64,000 nucleotides of DNA from Larkinella terrae. GTDB taxonomy: Bacteria > Bacteroidota > Bacteroidia > Cytophagales > Spirosomataceae. Below are positions 9,061 through 55,010 of this stretch, in pieces. The DNA is taken from the NCBI RefSeq assembly GCF_009668025.1, contig NZ_WJXZ01000014.1, positions 124,001-188,000 on the forward strand. The letters are read 5' to 3'. A program made the position numbers and the translations under genes. Each line of letters opens with the position of its first letter. The stretch's first letter is position 1. The notes beneath the pieces were generated by a model. The model did no database searches, was not told the origin of the DNA, and saw only the letters and a program-made list of their open reading frames with translations.

Positions 9061-9431
9061 TCCATTTCGATCAATTTAGTCCCAAAAATCAAAATACCTA
9101 CTATTACCGCAATAATAACTACTAATAATACGCCTGCGGCCGACAGATCCTTAACGGCTTTGATTTGCGGGTGCCGTTCCGGTGAAACCACATCGGCCAG
9201 TTTTTCGATGGCGGTATTGAAAGCTTCGGCGGCCAGCACCAGCCCGACCTGCGTCAGGATGAGCGCCCATTCCGTCCGATTTAACCGGAGCCAGATTCCG
9301 GCGATGACGACGGCAATGGCGGCCAATAAATGAATTTTAGCGTTATTTTCAAACCGGAACAGAGTGCCAATGCCCTCAACGGCAAATCGAAAACTCCGTA
9401 AATTTTTCCGAACGTCAATCCAGCGACTCAT
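9039..9431 (-). CDS. dgkA: Diacylglycerol/undecaprenol kinase family protein
   Basis: 130 residues from the ATG at 9429-9431 (MSRWIDVRKNLRSFRFA); a start 18 bases upstream is possible. Three membrane helices with the DgkA-family core: ENNAKIHLLAA, the AAEAFNTAIEKLAD stretch bearing the catalytic glutamate, and VKDLSAAGVLL. In Gram-negatives DgkA phosphorylates diacylglycerol; in many other bacteria the family recycles undecaprenol to its phosphate for cell-wall synthesis, so the lipid substrate is open. The gene overlaps the 3' end of the DUF1361 gene by 17 bases. Its C-terminal residues (WMVKNG) and stop are encoded by the palindrome arm. Confidence 0.9.
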   Translation of the reverse strand: MSRWIDVRKNLRSFRFAVEGIGTLFRFENNAKIHLLAAIAVVIAGIWLRLNRTEWALILTQVGLVLAAEAFNTAIEKLADVVSPERHPQIKAVKDLSAAGVLLVVIIAVIVGILIFGTKLIEMDWMVKNG

Positions 9432-10080
9432 GCGTACGGCGTTGAACAAACTGCGTGAAGCCGGTATAAAGCGTCACCAACGCGAAAGTATACGAAAGTG
9501 TCAGTTTCAATGCAAACGGGCTGAACAGGCTGCGGCCGATAATCTGGGACAGTTCCAGCGGATTCGTGAATAAATCCCAGCTATTCAGTCGGATGAAACG
9601 GCCGAGGTAAATGCCGAAACTGGTCAGAATCAGGCAGCCGATCATCACGGCCCAGGTGCGGACGTGGCCCATGCGCTGGAGGAGCATCCGGTGAACCAGC
9701 AATTGCGAATACAATCCGGTCAGCAGCCCCGTGAGGGCGCACATGAAAATCATCATGGTGTCGAACCAGACGGTTTCTTCCGCAACGTGCCGGACATGGA
9801 ACAAATCGGTGATGATATAGGGCGAATTAGGCAGAAAGAGTAGCCAGAACGCCAAACCAGGCCAGAAAAACCACTTTGGCAGTTGGCGACTTTCCAGTCC
9901 TTCACGCAGAAAGAGGATCACGGCGAGTGGAATCCAGGCTAGAAACAGGTTCCAGCTCAGCATTTTGAAGAACCAGTAATTCTGGCGAACCGCCACCATC
10001 GTTATGCTCATGACGGATAGCAAAATCAGCATTCGCAGGCCTTCGCCGGACCGGTATACCGCAAGTAATTTGTTCAGCAT
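9415..10080 (-). CDS. DUF1361 family membrane protein
   Basis: 221 residues from the ATG at 10078-10080 (MLNKLLAVYRSGEG). About seven membrane segments, with the DUF1361 hallmark WLLFLPNSPYIITDLFH, then WFDTMMIF and a conserved GLYS loop. The function of the family is not established. The stop overlaps the start region of dgkA, so the two are co-expressed. Divergent from mazG, with 175 bases between starts. A longer start 54 bases upstream exists but adds a non-family leader. Confidence 0.87.
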   Translation of the reverse strand: MLNKLLAVYRSGEGLRMLILLSVMSITMVAVRQNYWFFKMLSWNLFLAWIPLAVILFLREGLESRQLPKWFFWPGLAFWLLFLPNSPYIITDLFHVRHVAEETVWFDTMMIFMCALTGLLTGLYSQLLVHRMLLQRMGHVRTWAVMIGCLILTSFGIYLGRFIRLNSWDLFTNPLELSQIIGRSLFSPFALKLTLSYTFALVTLYTGFTQFVQRRTHESLD

Positions 10081-47999: not shown

Positions 48000-49025
48000 A
48001 TGAAAAAATTACTACTTGCCGGGTTCTTATTCTGCACCTTCATTGGCTTCGGGCAGACATTGACCAACCCCTTGCTGCCGTCGGGCGCGGATCCGTGGAG
48101 CATTCACAAAGACGGTTTTTATTATTACACGAACACCACCGGCCGCAACCTGACGCTGTGGAAAACCCGCTCGCTGGCCGATCTGAAAACCGCCGAAAAG
48201 AAAGTGGTCTGGACGCCCCCCGCAACCGGCCTGTATTCCAAAGAAATCTGGGCACCCGAACTGCATTTTATCAAAGGGAAATGGTACCTGATTTTTGCCG
48301 CCGACGATGGTCATAACCGCAACCACCGCCTGTGGGTGCTGGAAAACGCATCCGCCGATCCGCTGGAAGGGACCTGGACGATGAAAGGCCAGATCAAAAC
48401 GCCCGACGACAAATGGGCCATCGACGGTTCGATTTTCGAGTTCAGGGGAAAACTCTACCTGGTGTGGTCGGGTTGGGAAGGCGACGAGAATGGGGAGCAG
48501 GATATCTACCTCTGCCAGATGGAAAATCCGTGGACGGCAACGGGCAAACGCATCCGGATTTCATCGCCAACGTATGCGTGGGAAATCGATGGGAAAATAC
48601 CGAAACCGGGACCGGATGATAAGCCCATTGTGCTGGTCAACGAAGGGCCGCAGCCGCTTCAGCGAGGAGACCGCCTGTTTGTTGTTTTCTCGGCCAGCGG
48701 CTGCTGGACCGACAGCTACGCGTTGGGGATGCTTTCCTTCAACGGTGCCCAGGACATCATGACGCCCGGCAATTGGAAAAAGCAGGACAAACCGGTTTTC
48801 AAGGCGGTCAACGTGACCGGTACGAGCGCGGCCGGTCACAACTCCTTTTTCAAATCGCCCAACGGCCAGGAAGACTGGATCTTGTACCATGCCAACGACG
48901 AACCGGGGCAGGGCTGCGGAGGGCATCGTTCCCCGCGGGCGCAGAAGTTTACGTGGGGAGCCGACGGCATGCCGAACTTCGGCCAGCCGGTCGCGCTGGA
49001 CGTGACCATGCCGATTCCGAAGTAA
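48000..49025 (+). CDS. Secreted glycoside hydrolase family 43-like protein
   Basis: 341 residues with a signal peptide (KKLLLAGFLFCTFIGFGQ). Five-bladed propeller of the GH43 kind: LPSGADPWSIHKDGFYYYT (catalytic base Asp), EIWAPELHF, DKWAIDGSIFEFRGKLYLVWSGW (pKa-modulating Asp), SSPTYAWEIDG and VNEGPQ (acid Glu region), and the late CGGHRSPRAQKFTWGADGMPNF. Likely an arabinan- or xylan-side-chain-acting enzyme, acting outside the cytoplasm; specificity not inferable. A second copy of its 3' end lies 800 bases downstream. Confidence 0.92.
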   Translation: MKKLLLAGFLFCTFIGFGQTLTNPLLPSGADPWSIHKDGFYYYTNTTGRNLTLWKTRSLADLKTAEKKVVWTPPATGLYSKEIWAPELHFIKGKWYLIFAADDGHNRNHRLWVLENASADPLEGTWTMKGQIKTPDDKWAIDGSIFEFRGKLYLVWSGWEGDENGEQDIYLCQMENPWTATGKRIRISSPTYAWEIDGKIPKPGPDDKPIVLVNEGPQPLQRGDRLFVVFSASGCWTDSYALGMLSFNGAQDIMTPGNWKKQDKPVFKAVNVTGTSAAGHNSFFKSPNGQEDWILYHANDEPGQGCGGHRSPRAQKFTWGADGMPNFGQPVALDVTMPIPK

Positions 49026-49107
49026 CGTCACCGGCGGTTTTCCAACCATTCGATTTCGCGGTGGATCAACGTTATATTCCTGAGTAGATTTTTATAAGCT
49101 TCTTGCC

Positions 49108-49743
49108 ATGATTCAAAGAAATTGGTATGCAGTTTTGATCTGCATTGGCGTGTTCGTCGCTTGCAACCGGGGAGCGTTGGCCCAGACAGATTCATCTAAT
49201 TCCCGGAAAAGCCATGACCGGTATTGGGTCAGCTTCGGCCTCGGACGGGTTATCAGCCAATATCATCCAGGGGGAATTCCCGCAATCATGCCCGCCAATT
49301 ACGTTCCCGAAACCGGGAAAACCGCCCAATTTTTTGGTCTGGTGGGAACGGCGCATTTCCAGCCCCGGAATACGGGAAGCGTAGTTTCGCTTCGCTACGT
49401 CCTGAACGCCGAGTGGATGTATCACGATTTTCCGGGCATCCGGTACGAAGAATTGGCCGCCCTGTACGGCATCCGGCTTAACAACTTCCTGCTTTCTGCG
49501 GGTGTCAGTAAAAACCACGGCGTCGATCGGGGGAAATTCGTTCGGAGCTCCGATCCTGGGAGCCTTTTAGACGGTGATTACTACGAAAAAATTACGTATA
49601 AAGACGTTGGCCTGCCACTGGAAGCCCAATTCATCTTTCCTTTTCAGGGATTCAGTTTCAGGCTGGCGGCTTTCGGCAACATCAATGACGGCCACTCCTA
49701 CGGCGGTTTCAACTTTTCGATTTGCCTCGGGAGAATGAACTGA
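49108..49743 (+). CDS. Secreted/outer-membrane hypothetical protein
   Basis: 211 residues with a signal peptide (about 1-25, ending RGALAQ; a cysteine within the hydrophobic stretch is not a good lipobox). Glycine-rich beta strands (WVSFGLGRVISQYHPGG, FFGLVGTAHFQPRNTGSVVSLRYVL, LPLEAQFIFPFQGFSFRLAAFGNIN) suggest a small beta-barrel. Terminates exactly where a GH43-derived remnant begins. No family recognised. Confidence 0.75.
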   Translation: MIQRNWYAVLICIGVFVACNRGALAQTDSSNSRKSHDRYWVSFGLGRVISQYHPGGIPAIMPANYVPETGKTAQFFGLVGTAHFQPRNTGSVVSLRYVLNAEWMYHDFPGIRYEELAALYGIRLNNFLLSAGVSKNHGVDRGKFVRSSDPGSLLDGDYYEKITYKDVGLPLEAQFIFPFQGFSFRLAAFGNINDGHSYGGFNFSICLGRMN

Positions 49744-49850
49744 GGGCATAGCTTTCTGCGGGGACAGAAATTTACGTGGGGAGCCGACGGCATGCCGAAC
49801 TTCGGTCAGCAGGTTGCGTTAGACGTGACCATGCCGATCCCGAAGTAACG
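49742..49850 (+). pseudogene. 3' remnant of a second GH43-like gene
   Basis: 109 bases align without gaps to 48919-49027 (about 87 percent by eye). In frame it reads GHSFLRGQKFTWGADGMPNF and on to PIPK with a stop, matching the end of the GH43 protein at 48000. The 5' remainder is missing: the hypothetical gene's stop codon abuts the remnant. It reflects a tandem duplication later broken, or replacement of an upstream segment. Confidence 0.85.
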
Positions 49851-49882: not shown

Positions 49883-50037
49883 TCCCGTAGGGATGTAATC
49901 TTTGTAGCCAAAAGTTTGATTTGCATGGTCCAGCGTGCCGTAGGTACGCAATAAGGAATTAAGATTGCGTACCTACGGCACGCTGGAAAGAAAGCGAGGA
50001 CCAGCGCATTTTCTACAAACATAACGTCCCTATGGGA
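49883..50037. repeat. Double palindrome (CCGTAGGGATGTAAT outer, CGTGCCGTAGGTACGC inner)
   Basis: Inner arms CCAGCGTGCCGTAGGTACGC then AAT (49930-49952) and its perfect complement (49964-49986). Outer arms TCCCGTAGGGATGTAATCTT then TGTAG (49883-49907) and CTACAAACATAACGTCCCTA then TGGGA (50013-50037). Outer words of this type are frequent Bacteroidota intergenic repeats. With the GH43 remnant it fills the 354-base gap before the zinc-finger gene. Confidence 0.9.
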
Positions 50038-50097: not shown

Positions 50098-50379
50098 TCA
50101 GAAACGATACGGCGTAATCAGTTCATCGACGTAACACCAGAGCCAGAATTCACCAGGTTCGGCGGAGGCAATAACCGGGTGGCTGGTCTGGTGGAAATGC
50201 CTGGTTGCATGCTGGTTACGGGACGAGTCGCAGCAATGCGTCTGGCCACAGGTCTGGCAGGTTCGCAGGTGTACCCAGTGATCACCGGTTTTCACACATT
50301 CTTCGCAAACCGCCGGTAAATCCGGCAGCGTAACGGTTTCAATCGCATCAAGATGTGAACAGCCTTTTCGTTTCAGCAT
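50098..50379 (-). CDS. UBP-type zinc finger protein
   Basis: 93 residues from ATG 50377-50379 (MLKRKGCSHLDAIE). Zinc-ligand pattern: C7/H9, C25/C28, H34/H37, C41/C44, C49/C50 and H57/H61/H63/H67; the sequence HLRTCQTCGQTHCCDSSRNQHATRHFHQTSHPVIAS matches the ZnF_UBP (PF02148) pattern known for binding free ubiquitin C-termini in eukaryotes. Bacteria have no ubiquitin, so it must bind something else, perhaps a flexible protein C-terminus. Third gene of the operon with the REC-flavoprotein (7 bases after its stop) and the CNB kinase. Confidence 0.9.
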   Translation of the reverse strand: MLKRKGCSHLDAIETVTLPDLPAVCEECVKTGDHWVHLRTCQTCGQTHCCDSSRNQHATRHFHQTSHPVIASAEPGEFWLWCYVDELITPYRF

Positions 50380-50386
50380 AGCAATT

Positions 50387-52048
50387 TTAGGTTTCTGCCA
50401 GGTATTTATGAACAAAACTGACCGCCATCGCTCCTTCGCCCACGGCCGAAGCCACGCGGTTCATGGCCCCGGCCCGCACGTCACCGGCGGCAAAAATGCC
50501 CGCACTGCAGGTTTCCAGCAGGAAGGGATCACGGTCTAACTTCCAAAACTCCTTATAATCCGGGTATTTCGCAAGGTCACGACCGGTTTCGATGAAGCCT
50601 TTGGGGTCTTTAATGATGTTCATTTCGATCCAGTCGGTAAACGGTTTGGTCCCGATAAAAATGAACAGCGCGCTGGCGGGCACTTTCGTACGCTCGCCGG
50701 TCGGAATGTCTTCCAGCATCAGGCACTCCAGGTGCGATTCGCCCAGGCCTTCGGCCACCGCCGTACAGGGGTGGACGTGAATATTCGGCGTTTGTGCAAT
50801 CTGATCGATCAGGTACTGCGACATGGTGGCTGTCAGGTCGGGACGACGGATGATGATGTGTACTTCCGAAGCCATTCGGGACAGGTACATTGCGCCCTGA
50901 CCCGCCGAATTGCCGCCCCCGACCACATAAACCGGTTTCCCCTTGAACGCATACGCTTCGGTCGTGGCTGCTCCGTAATACACCCCGGCGCCCGTCAGTT
51001 TTTCCAGACCGGGACAATCCAGTTTGTGGTAAGCAACGCCCGTACTGAGCACAATACTCCGGGCCACAACCTCATTTCCGTCGCTCAATTCAATGTGTTT
51101 ATACTGCCCTTTGGGTTTGATGGCGACCACCTCGTGCGGGGCCAGAAACTCCACGCCAAACCGGGTGGCCTGCGTAATGGCCCGGCGCGCCAGTTCGGCC
51201 CCGCTCAATCCCGACGGAAAACCGAGGTAATTCTCAATCCGCGAGCTGGTTCCGGCCTGTCCGCCCGGCGCGCGTTTGTCGATCAGAATGGTTCGTAAGC
51301 CTTCCGAACCCGCATAAACGGCGGCCGCCAACCCCGCCGGACCCGCGCCAATAATGGCCAGATCATACAGCGACTGGGCGGCTTTGGCACTCAGGCCCAG
51401 CTTTTCGCCCACGGCGGGCATCGACGGTTGTTTCAAAACCGTACCGTTTTCCAACACCACCACCGGCAGATCTTTTGGCTCGATCTGGTGTAGGTCAACC
51501 AGCTTTTTAGCTTCCGGATTGGCTTCAAAATCAAGCCATTGGTACGGAAAAAGGTTGCCCGCCAGAAAATCTTTCAACTCGTGGGTCTGGGGCGAAAACT
51601 GGTAGCCGATGAGCTTGAGCCCTTCAAAACCGGGGCGGTAATTCGACTGCCAATCGTTCAGCAATTCGTCCAGAACGGGGTACAATTTTTCCGTCGGCGG
51701 GTCCCAGGGTTTGTTCAGGTAATAATCCAGTTGAATATCGTTGATGGCCCGGATGGCCGCTTCAATGTCGGAATACGCCGTCAGCAACACGGTTTTGGCG
51801 CGCGGATACAGCTTGCGGGCTTTGATCAGCAAATCGACGCCCAGCATATCCGGCATCCGCTGGTCCGACAGAAACAACGCCACTTCCTCGTTTTTTTTCT
51901 GCAATTCGACCAGCGTTTCCAGGACTTCGTTGGCCGAGGTCGTGGCCAGAATCTTGTAATTTTTCCGGTATTGCTGCCGTAAATCCCGCTGGATGGCCTG
52001 CAAAACCGCCTGGTCGTCGTCAACGGCAATGATAATGGGAAGTTTCAT
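50387..52048 (-). CDS. Response regulator fused to thioredoxin-reductase-like FAD oxidoreductase
   Basis: 553 residues from ATG 52046-52048. Domains: receiver (1-130; IIIAVDDD, phospho-acceptor D62 in SDQRMP, K113 in NKPWDP); a thioredoxin/glutaredoxin-like unit without CxxC (about 150-220; FPYQWLDFEANPEAKKL, LPVVVLENGTVLKQPS); TrxR-like flavoprotein (230-553) with IGAGPAGLAAAVYAGSEG, APGGQAGTSSRIENYLGFPSGLSG and NADPH-type GGGNSAGQ. The place of the redox cysteines reads YYGAATTEA (358-365), so it lacks the disulfide of true TrxR and the substrate must be different. Phosphorylation by the neighbouring kinase may gate flavin chemistry (inference). Confidence 0.93.
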   Translation of the reverse strand: MKLPIIIAVDDDQAVLQAIQRDLRQQYRKNYKILATTSANEVLETLVELQKKNEEVALFLSDQRMPDMLGVDLLIKARKLYPRAKTVLLTAYSDIEAAIRAINDIQLDYYLNKPWDPPTEKLYPVLDELLNDWQSNYRPGFEGLKLIGYQFSPQTHELKDFLAGNLFPYQWLDFEANPEAKKLVDLHQIEPKDLPVVVLENGTVLKQPSMPAVGEKLGLSAKAAQSLYDLAIIGAGPAGLAAAVYAGSEGLRTILIDKRAPGGQAGTSSRIENYLGFPSGLSGAELARRAITQATRFGVEFLAPHEVVAIKPKGQYKHIELSDGNEVVARSIVLSTGVAYHKLDCPGLEKLTGAGVYYGAATTEAYAFKGKPVYVVGGGNSAGQGAMYLSRMASEVHIIIRRPDLTATMSQYLIDQIAQTPNIHVHPCTAVAEGLGESHLECLMLEDIPTGERTKVPASALFIFIGTKPFTDWIEMNIIKDPKGFIETGRDLAKYPDYKEFWKLDRDPFLLETCSAGIFAAGDVRAGAMNRVASAVGEGAMAVSFVHKYLAET

Positions 52049-52133
52049 CGATCGGTATTGAGTAAATGAGTGATGGGGCGATTGTGTGAAATCAGGTCCC
52101 GATTTTGCTTGTAAATCAGCGTTTTCCAGGGCT

Positions 52134-53546
52134 TCAGGCCGATACCGTTTCGGGTTGCGAATGCATCGGAATGCACACTTTAAACTCGGTGCGGCCCGGT
52201 TTGGAATTGACATAAATCCGGCCGTTGTGGTGGCGGATAATGCCCTGCGCAATGTCCAGCCCGAGCCCGGTTCCTTTGCCAATCGCTTTGGTTGTATAAA
52301 AAGGCTCGAAAATATGGTCGAGCTGGTCGGCCGGAATCCCCGAACCGTTGTCGATGACGCGGATCAGCTCAAATTCGTGATCGACTTCGCCGGTAATTTC
52401 CAAACGACCGCCCTCGCTCATGGCGTCCACGGCATTGTCGATCAGGTTGGTCCAGACCTGGTTCAGTTCGCTCGGATACGCGTCCAGTTGCGGTAAATCA
52501 TCCGGAATCCGGACGTCGACCTGAATGTTTTTTTCTTTCAGTTTGTGTTTGAGTAACACCAGCGTACTGTCGATTCCCTCCCGAATGTGAATGCATTCCC
52601 GACCCGTTCCGCGATCCATGTGCGTATAGGATTTAATCGCATTCACCAGCACCGCAATGCGTTTGGAGGCTTCTGTAATATCGTTGACCAGCCGCTCCGT
52701 CACCAGGTTATTGACCATCCAGTTCAAAACCGTCGCCCGGCCTTCCGGCGCCACATCCTCCAGCAGCGTGTCCAGATCGTCGATCGTAAAACCAAAATCG
52801 ATGAGGGATTCGGTCAGGTCGTCGCCGTCCGAAACCCCGTTGTCGTCAAACCAGTCGAGTAGCGCATCTTCCAGATTGCTGCGTTCCAGCAGCGACAGGC
52901 GGTTTTTTCCGGCTTGCTCGTTCATTTTTCGGAACAGCAGATCACTCACCCGGTCCACCATTTCGTTGGTTACGCGCAGCGCCATCACGTCCTTAAACCG
53001 CTGGGGCGTGTTTTGTAAATGCGATTTCAGCGTATCCGAACTCCGCACCACCGCCGAAACCGGGTTGTTCAGTTCGTGAGCCAGGCCCGCCGACATGCGT
53101 CCCAGCGCCATCATTTTGTCGTTTTGCTGCATCAGCCGCGTCGATTCCCGCACCCGCGACGTCATGACCTGCACCAGCGTTTCCGTCAGTTCGTATTGAT
53201 TCTGAATCATTTCGCGAAAATGGTCGCGGTGCATCGACAGCAACGCAGTCGGTTCCAGCGTTTGCCAGTAGGCGATGGATTCCACCATGCGCGAAAAGGG
53301 CAGTACGCCTTCCAGACCGCCTTCTTCCGCCGTCCGCAACTCCTGCTGCTGCCCCTGCTGGATGAAGTAAAACCGGATTCGCCCTTTGAGCAGGATGTAA
53401 AAATGATCGGTCGGATCACCGGGTGAATAGAGAATGGTGTCCGCCGGATACTCGAGACAGTCGGACTGATCGACCAGCCAGCTTAGCTGCGCTTCCGGCA
53501 CGTGCTGAAAATTCGGATTGTTTTTTAGTAAGGCAAGGCAATCCAT
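52134..53546 (-). CDS. CNB-domain (Crp-like) histidine kinase
   Basis: 470 residues from ATG 53544-53546 (MDCLALLKNNPNFQHV); a longer start adds eight residues. N-terminal cyclic-nucleotide-binding domain (1-125; LEYPADTILYSPGDPTDHFYILLKGRIRFYFIQ), then DHp with AGLAHELNNPVSAVVRSSDTL (H157), a long middle insertion (about 190-300), and HATPase (NQVWTNLIDNAVDAM, DNGSGIPADQLDHIFEPFYTTK, GKGTGLGLDIAQGI). No membrane segment. The CNB domain lacks the clear RxAxV phosphate-binding motif (visible instead: EGVLPFSRMVES), so ligand binding is open. 85 bases before the REC-flavoprotein gene, same strand. Confidence 0.92.
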   Translation of the reverse strand: MDCLALLKNNPNFQHVPEAQLSWLVDQSDCLEYPADTILYSPGDPTDHFYILLKGRIRFYFIQQGQQQELRTAEEGGLEGVLPFSRMVESIAYWQTLEPTALLSMHRDHFREMIQNQYELTETLVQVMTSRVRESTRLMQQNDKMMALGRMSAGLAHELNNPVSAVVRSSDTLKSHLQNTPQRFKDVMALRVTNEMVDRVSDLLFRKMNEQAGKNRLSLLERSNLEDALLDWFDDNGVSDGDDLTESLIDFGFTIDDLDTLLEDVAPEGRATVLNWMVNNLVTERLVNDITEASKRIAVLVNAIKSYTHMDRGTGRECIHIREGIDSTLVLLKHKLKEKNIQVDVRIPDDLPQLDAYPSELNQVWTNLIDNAVDAMSEGGRLEITGEVDHEFELIRVIDNGSGIPADQLDHIFEPFYTTKAIGKGTGLGLDIAQGIIRHHNGRIYVNSKPGRTEFKVCIPMHSQPETVSA

Positions 53547-53606: not shown

Positions 53607-55010
53607 TTATCGTTCAGACCGGCGGTTAGGTTCCGCGTTTTGTTTCCGCACGATACCCTCAAACCGGTTGGCAACGGCGTCAATCCGGGATGGATTACCA
53701 GTTAAGGTATGATCGAAAAATGCATCGACCAGGCTGACAGTTGCCCGATGCGTTTTTGCTGATTGTTGACCAAAGCGTAAGAGGTAGCCTGCCAACAGGC
53801 GGGCAGGAGGAGCTAACAGGAGCGGGACATCCGTAAAACTGTAATGATCGGCGTCCACCAGTTCGTACCTGAATCCACTACCAAATTGCCTGAATAACAA
53901 CCGATTGCCCGCTTCGTATCGGGCGTACCGACCGGTTTCACCTTTTTCGTCTTTATTACTTTCGACCAGTAGAAAAGGACGAGACGTCGTTGATTCGGGC
54001 AATCCGCCGTACAAGGTGCCATCGATATTGACCGCTGCTTTAATTCGTGCATCATGAGCCATCGCAACGGCCCCCGTGGCACCACCAAAGGAATGACCGG
54101 CGATACCAATCCGGTTCAGGTCAAGCGAGGTGAAGAATGGATTCGTGGAGGAATTTTTATTTTCTAATTGATTGAGCACGAACTGCACATCGGCAACACG
54201 GATGTCAAGCCGGTTTTTCATAAACCCAAGCCGGTCGGGGGCACCCGGTTCAAAGTTTTCAATCGTGGTGGCCAGTTTCCCGTTGGCCAGTTGCGTAAGA
54301 GCGGCTTCGTAGGGATGATCCAGACAGAAAACAACGTAGCCCTGACTGGCCAGGTCAACGGCCAGGCTGGTATAAAACGCCCGCGCGGCTCCGTAGCCCG
54401 GTAGAAAAAGCACAACCGGCCATTTTCCTTGAGCTGGTGTTGCATTTGCGGCCGCATAAGTATCAATTTGATCGTAGTGATCCAGTAAAAAGCTCGGTAA
54501 AACACTCACCTTTGGTGGCAGGTTGGGCCACCCATCCAAATAGAGGGAGTGAGTGCCATTTACGTCCCCCTGGGCTGGATACCAAGCTTGCACAATTACA
54601 TTCCGTTTGTCAAAGGGGTCTTTGGTTATTTGTTCCGCTCTGGTTGAATCGACCCAGCGAAAAACCCGGGTTCCAACGGCATACTTGCCTGAAGGCTCGG
54701 TTAAAACAGGAACTGGTAAAAAGATAGCCCAGGGCATCAGGGCAACAACCAGTAACAGCCCTAAGCTGATGCGCTGCAGTTTTCGAGGTAATGCGGTTTT
54801 GCTAAAGACGACGATGATCAGCAAACCGATTAGCAAATAGGCCGGAATGTATTGCCAATAGAAGCCTTTCCAAAGAAATTGAATCACCACTAACAGGGTC
54901 AATAAGCTGATTAAAATGGTGAGTACGCCTTTGGCCCGATTCGAAGCGACGATTGCAGAAACCGTAGTTATGACCAGAATGACCAAAATCAAGATATCCA
55001 GGCTGTTCAT
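53607..55010 (-). CDS. Alpha/beta hydrolase with N-terminal membrane region (PAF-acetylhydrolase-like)
   Basis: 467 residues. N-terminal four membrane segments (about 5-100), then an alpha/beta-hydrolase domain similar to platelet-activating-factor acetylhydrolase: VVLFLPGYGAARAFYTSLAVDLASQGYVVFCLDHPYEA (oxyanion region), nucleophile elbow IGIAGHSFGGATGAVAM, NIDGTLYGGLPES, and ELVDADHYSFTDVPLL (His). Probable esterase or lipase facing the periplasm; substrate unknown. Single gene, downstream boundary with the CNB operon; base composition is a little more AT-rich than neighbours. Confidence 0.9.
   Translation of the reverse strand: MNSLDILILVILVITTVSAIVASNRAKGVLTILISLLTLLVVIQFLWKGFYWQYIPAYLLIGLLIIVVFSKTALPRKLQRISLGLLLVVALMPWAIFLPVPVLTEPSGKYAVGTRVFRWVDSTRAEQITKDPFDKRNVIVQAWYPAQGDVNGTHSLYLDGWPNLPPKVSVLPSFLLDHYDQIDTYAAANATPAQGKWPVVLFLPGYGAARAFYTSLAVDLASQGYVVFCLDHPYEAALTQLANGKLATTIENFEPGAPDRLGFMKNRLDIRVADVQFVLNQLENKNSSTNPFFTSLDLNRIGIAGHSFGGATGAVAMAHDARIKAAVNIDGTLYGGLPESTTSRPFLLVESNKDEKGETGRYARYEAGNRLLFRQFGSGFRYELVDADHYSFTDVPLLLAPPARLLAGYLLRFGQQSAKTHRATVSLVDAFFDHTLTGNPSRIDAVANRFEGIVRKQNAEPNRRSER

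Follow-up and report, generated by a model that had tools for sequence, protein, structure and literature searches.

In the KefF-KefC and KefG-KefB systems, which are K+/H+ antiporters gated by glutathione, a soluble flavoprotein is the partner of a CPA2 antiporter that carries a TrkA-N/KTN domain, and the pair acts in electrophile stress (PMC10224563). According to the same source, KefF is a flavin oxidoreductase that is needed for full KefC activity, and KefF mutants that are poor in catalysis still activate. KefC is described as being shut by its RCK domains and seems to open on their detachment, which KefF is thought to stabilise (PMC11150392). A soluble protein whose phosphorylation state sets antiport is described in Escherichia coli, where the phosphorelay protein PtsN inhibits the CPA1 antiporter YcgO (PMC11808508). 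Here, we analyzed three neighboring genes of Larkinella terrae that encode a histidine kinase with a cyclic nucleotide-binding (CNB)-like domain, a receiver-flavoprotein, and a UBP-type zinc finger. They lie in a stretch of 64,000 nucleotides (contig NZ_WJXZ01000014.1, positions 124,001 to 188,000) that is referred to as the window. This trio is a conserved signalling module, most likely with a function in stress, and it is apparently unstudied.

At many loci outside the window, the module resembles KefF and KefG in that a soluble flavoprotein accompanies an antiporter. However, its flavoprotein resembles thioredoxin reductase (TrxR) and does not have the flavodoxin fold, PF02525 was not found in the flavoprotein of the window, and the module adds a receiver, a kinase, and a finger that is encoded next to the antiporter or forms part of the same protein. 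PtsN-YcgO differs in that its relay is of the phosphotransferase system type, and the abstract on it mentions neither a flavoprotein nor a zinc finger (PMC11808508).

To describe the distribution of the trio, stretches of 10-14 kb (less on small contigs) around zf-UBP (PF02148) sites of Bacteroidota, Actinomycetota, and Pseudomonadota were collected and the neighbors were classed by BLAST; an additional count in 150 genomes of the window's family, the Spirosomataceae, gives presence only. Among 395 Bacteroidota genomes, 38 contained the finger, 36 of them with a match above the cut-off; it was also present in 52 of the 150 Spirosomataceae, 56 of 246 Actinomycetota, and 10 of 299 Pseudomonadota genomes. 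G023 and G131, whose zf-UBP matches were below the cut-off and contained stops, and the partial actinomycetotal site G590:C20 were left out, two sites of genome G645 share one stretch (L156), and L208, which gave no match, was not counted. Defined as all three genes on the same strand and at most 5 kb from the finger, the trio was present at 21 of 37 Bacteroidota finger loci (window included), 10 of 72 in Actinomycetota, and none of 10 in Pseudomonadota. A search among relatives found it at 7 of 17 loci, six in Larkinella and one in Rufibacter, and two annotated actinobacterial plasmids (Streptomyces fungicidicus and Tsukamurella) carry the genes in the order flavoprotein, kinase, finger. An earlier note on this DNA, which had suggested a survey of genome neighborhoods, held that the absence of the trio beyond close relatives would speak against a functional unit; as the trio is found in two phyla, this refutation did not occur.

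The 40 trio loci show five of the six possible gene orders and, when antiporter and thioredoxin-fold genes are counted, nine arrangements. The flavoprotein was found in 53 of the 395 Bacteroidota genomes (search E up to 1e-70): 33 had both flavoprotein and finger, 3 only the finger, 20 only the flavoprotein, and 339 neither. It thus occurs in 33 of 36 genomes with a finger versus 20 of the remaining 359 (Fisher p 8.6e-31, uncorrected for kinship), so that most unlinked Bacteroidota fingers share their genome with a flavoprotein. All three genomes with only the finger have a Kef gene beside or fused to it. A mere chance neighborhood was rejected on the basis of the trios in two phyla, the linkage in presence and absence, and the five gene orders. 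A known anti-phage system was also rejected, as PADLOC gave no match for the three proteins or for a Kef protein. As regards phage cargo, one scan of viral contigs with the finger of the window, a query that can detect only close relatives, gave 7 pattern matches, none of which was confirmed.

The module is linked to antiporter genes in many genomes. Kef-type antiporters, defined by Na_H_Exchanger plus TrkA_N (by Pfam in four or their kin, by BLAST in the rest), lie within 5 kb on the strand of the finger or are fused to it in 18 of the 21 Bacteroidota trios; none is adjacent in the window. Such a gene is present at 18 of 21 Bacteroidota receiver-flavoprotein loci with a finger versus 3 of 27 without one, a comparison made with finger-less flavoprotein loci and not with random genes. 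In the flavobacterial-type operons (family f24), the gene order is Kef, finger, kinase, flavoprotein, and in 9 of 14 a gene of the DsbA/thioredoxin fold was detected between Kef and the finger. PF02525, the KefF fold, was detected at the Kef locus in none of the 18 genomes with trio and Kef, though it has matches elsewhere in genomes. The Kef protein of locus L063 ends in a glutaredoxin domain.

Even closer links are provided by gene fusions, in which the finger is C-terminal to the antiporter. Kef-finger fusions were identified by Pfam in L049 and L054 and by frame length and BLAST in L011, L052, and L060, and a Na_H_Exchanger without TrkA_N (labelled CPA1-type) is fused to the finger in L107, L144, L147, and L163 (Pfam). 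In one case (L156:4986-6743, Pfam), the finger is fused to a CNB-histidine kinase beside a receiver-flavoprotein; another zinc finger, which is not fused, is encoded at 9184-9564 of the same stretch. Of the 72 actinomycetotal fingers, 15 have an antiporter nearby, which is fused in 4 cases, on the same strand in 4, and on the opposite strand in 7. The long frames of L127 (980 aa) and L157 (648 aa) were rejected as fusions, as Pfam found only zf-UBP in them, and L125 and similar long frames were judged to be overlapping GC-rich frames. Because of the fusions, we prefer to see the finger as a docking unit common to antiporters and, once, the kinase, a change from the reading in the earlier note.

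The flavoprotein contains Response_reg and Pyr_redox_2 in one open reading frame, and the regulator has the TrxR-like output described in the earlier note. Pyr_redox_2 covers residues 228-539 with the two-dinucleotide-domain fold of TrxR and AhpF, and AhpF (4xvg, 1hyu) and thioredoxin reductases were the top matches in Foldseek (E 1e-25 to 1e-29, best 50 rows). Like AhpF and bacterial thioredoxin reductase, the protein combines a thioredoxin-fold N-terminal unit with a TrxR core, but it has a receiver in front and has lost the cysteines. In the register that we assume for TrxR, with CxxC at positions 360 and 363 as counted back from the GGG motif, none of 71 receiver-flavoproteins has a cysteine at either position; the YYGAATTEA noticed in the earlier note lies at this site of the window protein (residues 357-365). 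The middle unit, which had been called a degenerate thioredoxin-like unit, is glutaredoxin/mycoredoxin-like: a profile of 32 rows, picked from the 71, matched the mycoredoxin/glutaredoxin 2lqo (E 2.6e-9), and all 32 rows have serine in the column aligned with the catalytic cysteine of 2lqo. With E values up to 1 accepted, Pfam found Glutaredoxin in 17 of these 32 proteins, with no match in the window's own row, and in the AlphaFold model, at moderate confidence, strands and helices succeed one another as in a glutaredoxin.

As the redox CxxC is lost and serine replaces the glutaredoxin cysteine, thiol-disulfide transfer of the TrxR type is very unlikely, and a thioredoxin reductase proper was rejected because no row had a redox-site cysteine. 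The receiver-less flavoproteins also had no CxxC at this site among the 22 of 23 forms caught by the motif search. Residue 368, five after the lost CxxC and out of its register, is cysteine in 35 of the 71 receiver-flavoproteins and phenylalanine in the window; the equivalent residue is cysteine in 19 of 22 receiver-less forms (by eye). Some of these flavoproteins are named thioredoxin-disulfide reductase in public records, an annotation thus given to proteins without the cysteines for that chemistry. One annotated type, the cyclic nucleotide-binding domain-containing thioredoxin-disulfide reductase, has a TrxR-like core without the redox CxxC and is found beside UBP fingers; it differs in having the CNB domain fused in front (L018 by Pfam, L090 by annotation) and no receiver, and it looks like a one-component form. 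Fusions of receiver and TrxR may already be listed in response-regulator censuses.

The soluble kinase has the N-terminal CNB-like domain reported before (Pfam cNMP_binding, HisKA, and HATPase_c), H157 within the motif HELNNP is present in all 50 aligned rows, and 65 of 69 kinases have HELNNP or HEINNP. D10, D11, D62 (within LSDQRMP), T90, and K113 of the receiver are found in 71 of 71 rows, and together with the H-box histidine of a HisKA/HATPase kinase they make up the sequence hallmarks of a two-component system. At 41 of 48 Bacteroidota receiver-flavoprotein loci, a same-strand kinase lies within 1.2 kb, and 3 more have an antiporter gene in between. Of the remaining loci, one has a divergent kinase and three have none by the neighbor test, although in L207 a kinase-like frame runs off the stretch and L192 is at a contig end. 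The 44 of 48 contrast with none of 5 Bacteroidota loci with receiver-less flavoproteins (a sixth, G187:C6, was cut by its stretch and excluded), in agreement with the earlier proposal that the trio is a functional unit in which the kinase serves the receiver-flavoprotein. As the kinase accompanies the receiver form and not the receiver-less form, in which a CNB domain is fused in front in L018 and absent in L080 (Pfam), we infer that these are two- and one-component versions of one device.

What the kinase senses appears to vary. The phosphate-binding cassette of CRP-type CNB domains contains Gly-Glu and an arginine. In the 50 window-like kinases, G80, P83, S85, and R86 are invariant, and 48 rows have L82; position 81 is never glutamate, and positions 89-90 are never arginine (3 rows have arginine at 88 and 3 at 91). 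Sensing of cAMP through the usual residues was therefore ruled out for the window kinase. The LPxSR pattern occurs in 52 of 69 kinases. A script identified a canonical-like cNMP pocket in L132 and L156, and inspection by eye added L152 and L161; L186 lacks a CNB-like pattern, and the remaining kinases have other sequences. Judged from these alignments, the sensor input is variable, while kinase and flavoprotein remain paired.

Table 1. Coordinates of the trio and its parts, in positions of the window.
Feature	Position	Strand	Evidence
CNB-domain histidine kinase, soluble, 470 aa	52134..53546	-	ORF, Pfam cNMP_binding + HisKA + HATPase_c, 50-row alignment
CNB-like sensor domain, residues 32-116, motif G-x-L-P-x-S-R replacing usual cNMP pocket	53199..53453	-	Pfam, alignment
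His157 phospho-acceptor codon (predicted)	53076..53078	-	50/50 aligned kinase rows
Kinase / receiver-flavoprotein intergenic gap, 85 bases	52049..52133	-	
Receiver - glutaredoxin-like - TrxR-like flavoprotein, 553 aa	50387..52048	-	ORF, Pfam Response_reg + Pyr_redox_2, AlphaFold, Foldseek
Receiver domain, residues 6-117	51698..52033	-	Pfam; D10, D11, D62, T90, K113 in 71/71 rows
Asp62 phospho-acceptor codon (predicted)	51863..51865	-	71/71 rows
Glutaredoxin/mycoredoxin-like domain, residues 144-217, Ser for catalytic Cys	51398..51619	-	32-row profile, secondary structure
TrxR-like FAD/NAD(P)H core, residues 228-539	50432..51367	-	Pfam, Foldseek
YYGAATTEA (residues 357-365) at site of TrxR redox CxxC	50954..50980	-	0/71 rows with Cys
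Flavoprotein / zinc finger intergenic gap, 7 bases	50380..50386	-	
UBP-type zinc finger protein, 93 aa	50098..50379	-	Pfam zf-UBP; nearest structure 2ida / RPA1320

The reading that we prefer, with a probability of roughly 0.4, is that a phosphorelay sets a non-thiol flavoprotein, which docks via the finger and gates its client, either an antiporter or a different stress protein, in the way that KefF acts on KefC. The kinase would phosphorylate D62 of the receiver, and the FAD/NAD(P)H-binding core would thereby adopt a different pose. This core would be a subunit that reads nucleotide or redox state and not a thioredoxin reductase, and it perhaps also reduces quinones or similar electrophiles; a non-catalytic regulator would agree with the data no less than a gated oxidoreductase. 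The zinc finger would dock the flavoprotein subunit on its client. At antiporter-linked loci, the client would be the antiporter, the module would replace an ancillary flavoprotein of the KefF/KefG type, and cation/proton exchange would be opened or closed under electrophile or oxidative stress. In the window genome, the client would be unlinked and could be a distant Kef relative elsewhere or another protein.

The type of stress is suggested by neighboring genes. The flanks of 22 Kef-finger loci contain genes for the DsbA/thioredoxin fold in 11 cases, the glyoxalase/dioxygenase superfamily in 13, and carboxylesterase in 12, versus 2 of 45 each in other Bacteroidota stretches. The glyoxalase/dioxygenase-superfamily and carboxylesterase neighbors resemble quinone-resistance genes; the glyoxalase-superfamily one reached no NCBIfam cut-off. 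On a plasmid of Rhodococcus sp. PD04 (L090), dnaK-grpE-J-cbpM-clpB-trxA is followed by the finger and the CNB-flavoprotein. A loose parallel only is provided by the tLST, or locus of heat resistance, island, which includes sHsp20, ClpK, YfdX, HdeD, Trx, and KefB (PMC8407380, PMC8290217), and whose kefB is reported to protect from chlorine (PMC8407380). Further loci may be mentioned here. An OsmC-like gene directly precedes the finger in L059 (Pfam) and L072 (by cluster), both of one Bacteroidota genus, and on a Rhizobium plasmid (L089, 3284-6297) the finger directly follows three genes, which are annotated as an ATP-binding protein, a response regulator transcription factor, and a response regulator, and precedes a receiver-less flavoprotein frame.

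Several observations weigh against gating of an antiporter by the docked flavoprotein. In the stretches of the window and of its Larkinella relatives, no antiporter was detected by script, and the best Kef match of the window genome is only 27-34% identical and lies on another contig; a weaker match lies on the window's own contig outside the window. The 18 loci with trio and Kef are skewed toward one family (14 in f24, 2 in f30, and 1 each in f42 and f54), and of the seven opposite-strand antiporters in Actinomycetota at least 5 belong to one syntenic lineage. In all 10 Pseudomonadota loci, a receiver-less flavoprotein is on the finger's strand and no antiporter was found, and stretches of Nostoc, Deinococcus, and Caballeronia plasmids contain receiver-flavoprotein and kinase without finger or antiporter. 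None of the tested partners lies within 5 kb of 43 of 72 actinomycetotal and 10 of 37 Bacteroidota fingers, so that either some partners are missing from the tested set or the finger also serves different clients. The structure model of the flavoprotein is middling (pLDDT 75, pTM 0.46). Finally, the finger tree, calculated with 113 of 145 rows as half of the partner-less rows were left out, is poorly resolved and the partner labels are mixed on it. These labels need 27 changes, compared to a minimum of 4 and a shuffled mean of 60, so partners cluster by kinship and yet were repeatedly gained or lost.

The strongest rival, which we regard as possible but on the unlikely side, is that the flavoprotein is an NAD(P)H-dependent enzyme that is activated by phosphorylation and detoxifies a quinone, a peroxide, or another electrophile, with the finger delivering the substrate or a partner and the antiporter linkage reflecting a common stress regulon. 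The residues G234, G236, G377, N380, and S381 of the FAD/NAD(P)H motifs are invariant in 71 rows, as expected for such an enzyme, and the glyoxalase/dioxygenase-superfamily and carboxylesterase neighbors, as well as an S-(hydroxymethyl)mycothiol dehydrogenase next to the Tsukamurella plasmid locus, point in the same direction. Detoxification nevertheless leaves unexplained why the finger is covalently joined to antiporters and to the kinase, and the TrxR site has no dithiol.

The finger itself might be the input rather than an adaptor, acting as a redox or electrophile sensor in which modification of the zinc cysteines or zinc release alters the complex with flavoprotein, kinase, or antiporter. 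Its C-terminal fusion to antiporters is compatible with this, and so is the conservation of nine Cys/His positions in 145 aligned fingers: C41, C44, C49, H57, and H61 are present in all, C25, C50, and H67 in 144, and C28 in 143. A structural zinc would predict equally conserved cysteines and histidines, however, and the conserved non-ligand residues R39 (145), W79 (138), D51 (136), and S53 (138) suggest a binding surface, so that we consider a sensing finger unlikely.

Even less probable is a finger that, in the manner of eukaryotic ZnF-UBP domains, holds on to free C-terminal tails and thereby brings to the flavoprotein a protein that is tagged or ends naturally in glycine. The UBP-type fold named in the earlier note is certainly there: the window finger, which is 92% identical to that of Larkinella rosea, scores 42.3 bits with zf-UBP (cut-off 22.7) and has the fold and zinc ligands of the family. 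The closest solved protein is RPA1320 of Rhodopseudomonas palustris (2ida), a structural-genomics entry that is 50% identical over 85-88 residues, followed by HDAC6 and USP domains. In HDAC6, the arginine of the CGRY motif contacts the carboxylate of the ubiquitin tail. Position 52, which is aligned with this arginine, is Arg or Lys in none of the 145 rows, and because the tail-pocket arginine is missing throughout, ubiquitin-tail binding by the same contacts is unsupported; the bacterial finger probably is not a ubiquitin-tail binder of the eukaryotic type. Searches of the open-licence PMC literature gave no function attributed to UBP zinc fingers of bacteria and no paper on RPA1320 by name, which does not prove that there are none. 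That the genes are functionally independent neighbors held together by shared ancestry and transcription, for which one could cite that six other Larkinella loci keep the gene order with parts 66-99% identical to those of the window, is highly improbable in view of the five gene orders, the two phyla, the fusions, and the linkage in presence and absence.

The close surroundings of the trio, whose spacing and common strand are as reported in the earlier note, contain some additional features. Promoter- and terminator-like sites at the trio were about as frequent as in shuffled sequences (3 versus a mean of 2.9 and 8 versus 6.5, respectively). A PAF-acetylhydrolase-like alpha/beta hydrolase gene (53607-55010, same strand) ends 60 bases upstream of the kinase and is in no neighbor cluster of the other loci compared. 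At 49929-49987, 3' of the trio, there is a perfect 24-nt inverted repeat with an 11-nt spacer, which has a second genomic copy with one mismatch (C1:1045982-1046028). A 109-nt direct repeat (48919-49027 and 49742-49850, 87% identical) is the 3' end of a GH43 gene and recurs behind a 211-aa open reading frame without Pfam match.

A bolder generalization, which we regard as rather doubtful, is that prokaryotic UBP fingers dock a class of undescribed antiporter regulators, in which a kinase- or CNB-switched, thiol-dead glutaredoxin-TrxR protein would read the pyridine-nucleotide or thiol-adduct state and open antiporters as an alternative to KefF, the finger sharing ancestry with the eukaryotic ubiquitin-binding finger. 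In any case, the antiporter linkage, the kinase-finger fusion, and the missing KefF suggest a job for both the finger and the flavoprotein, and the module may connect a phosphorelay with the control of ions and pH under stress.

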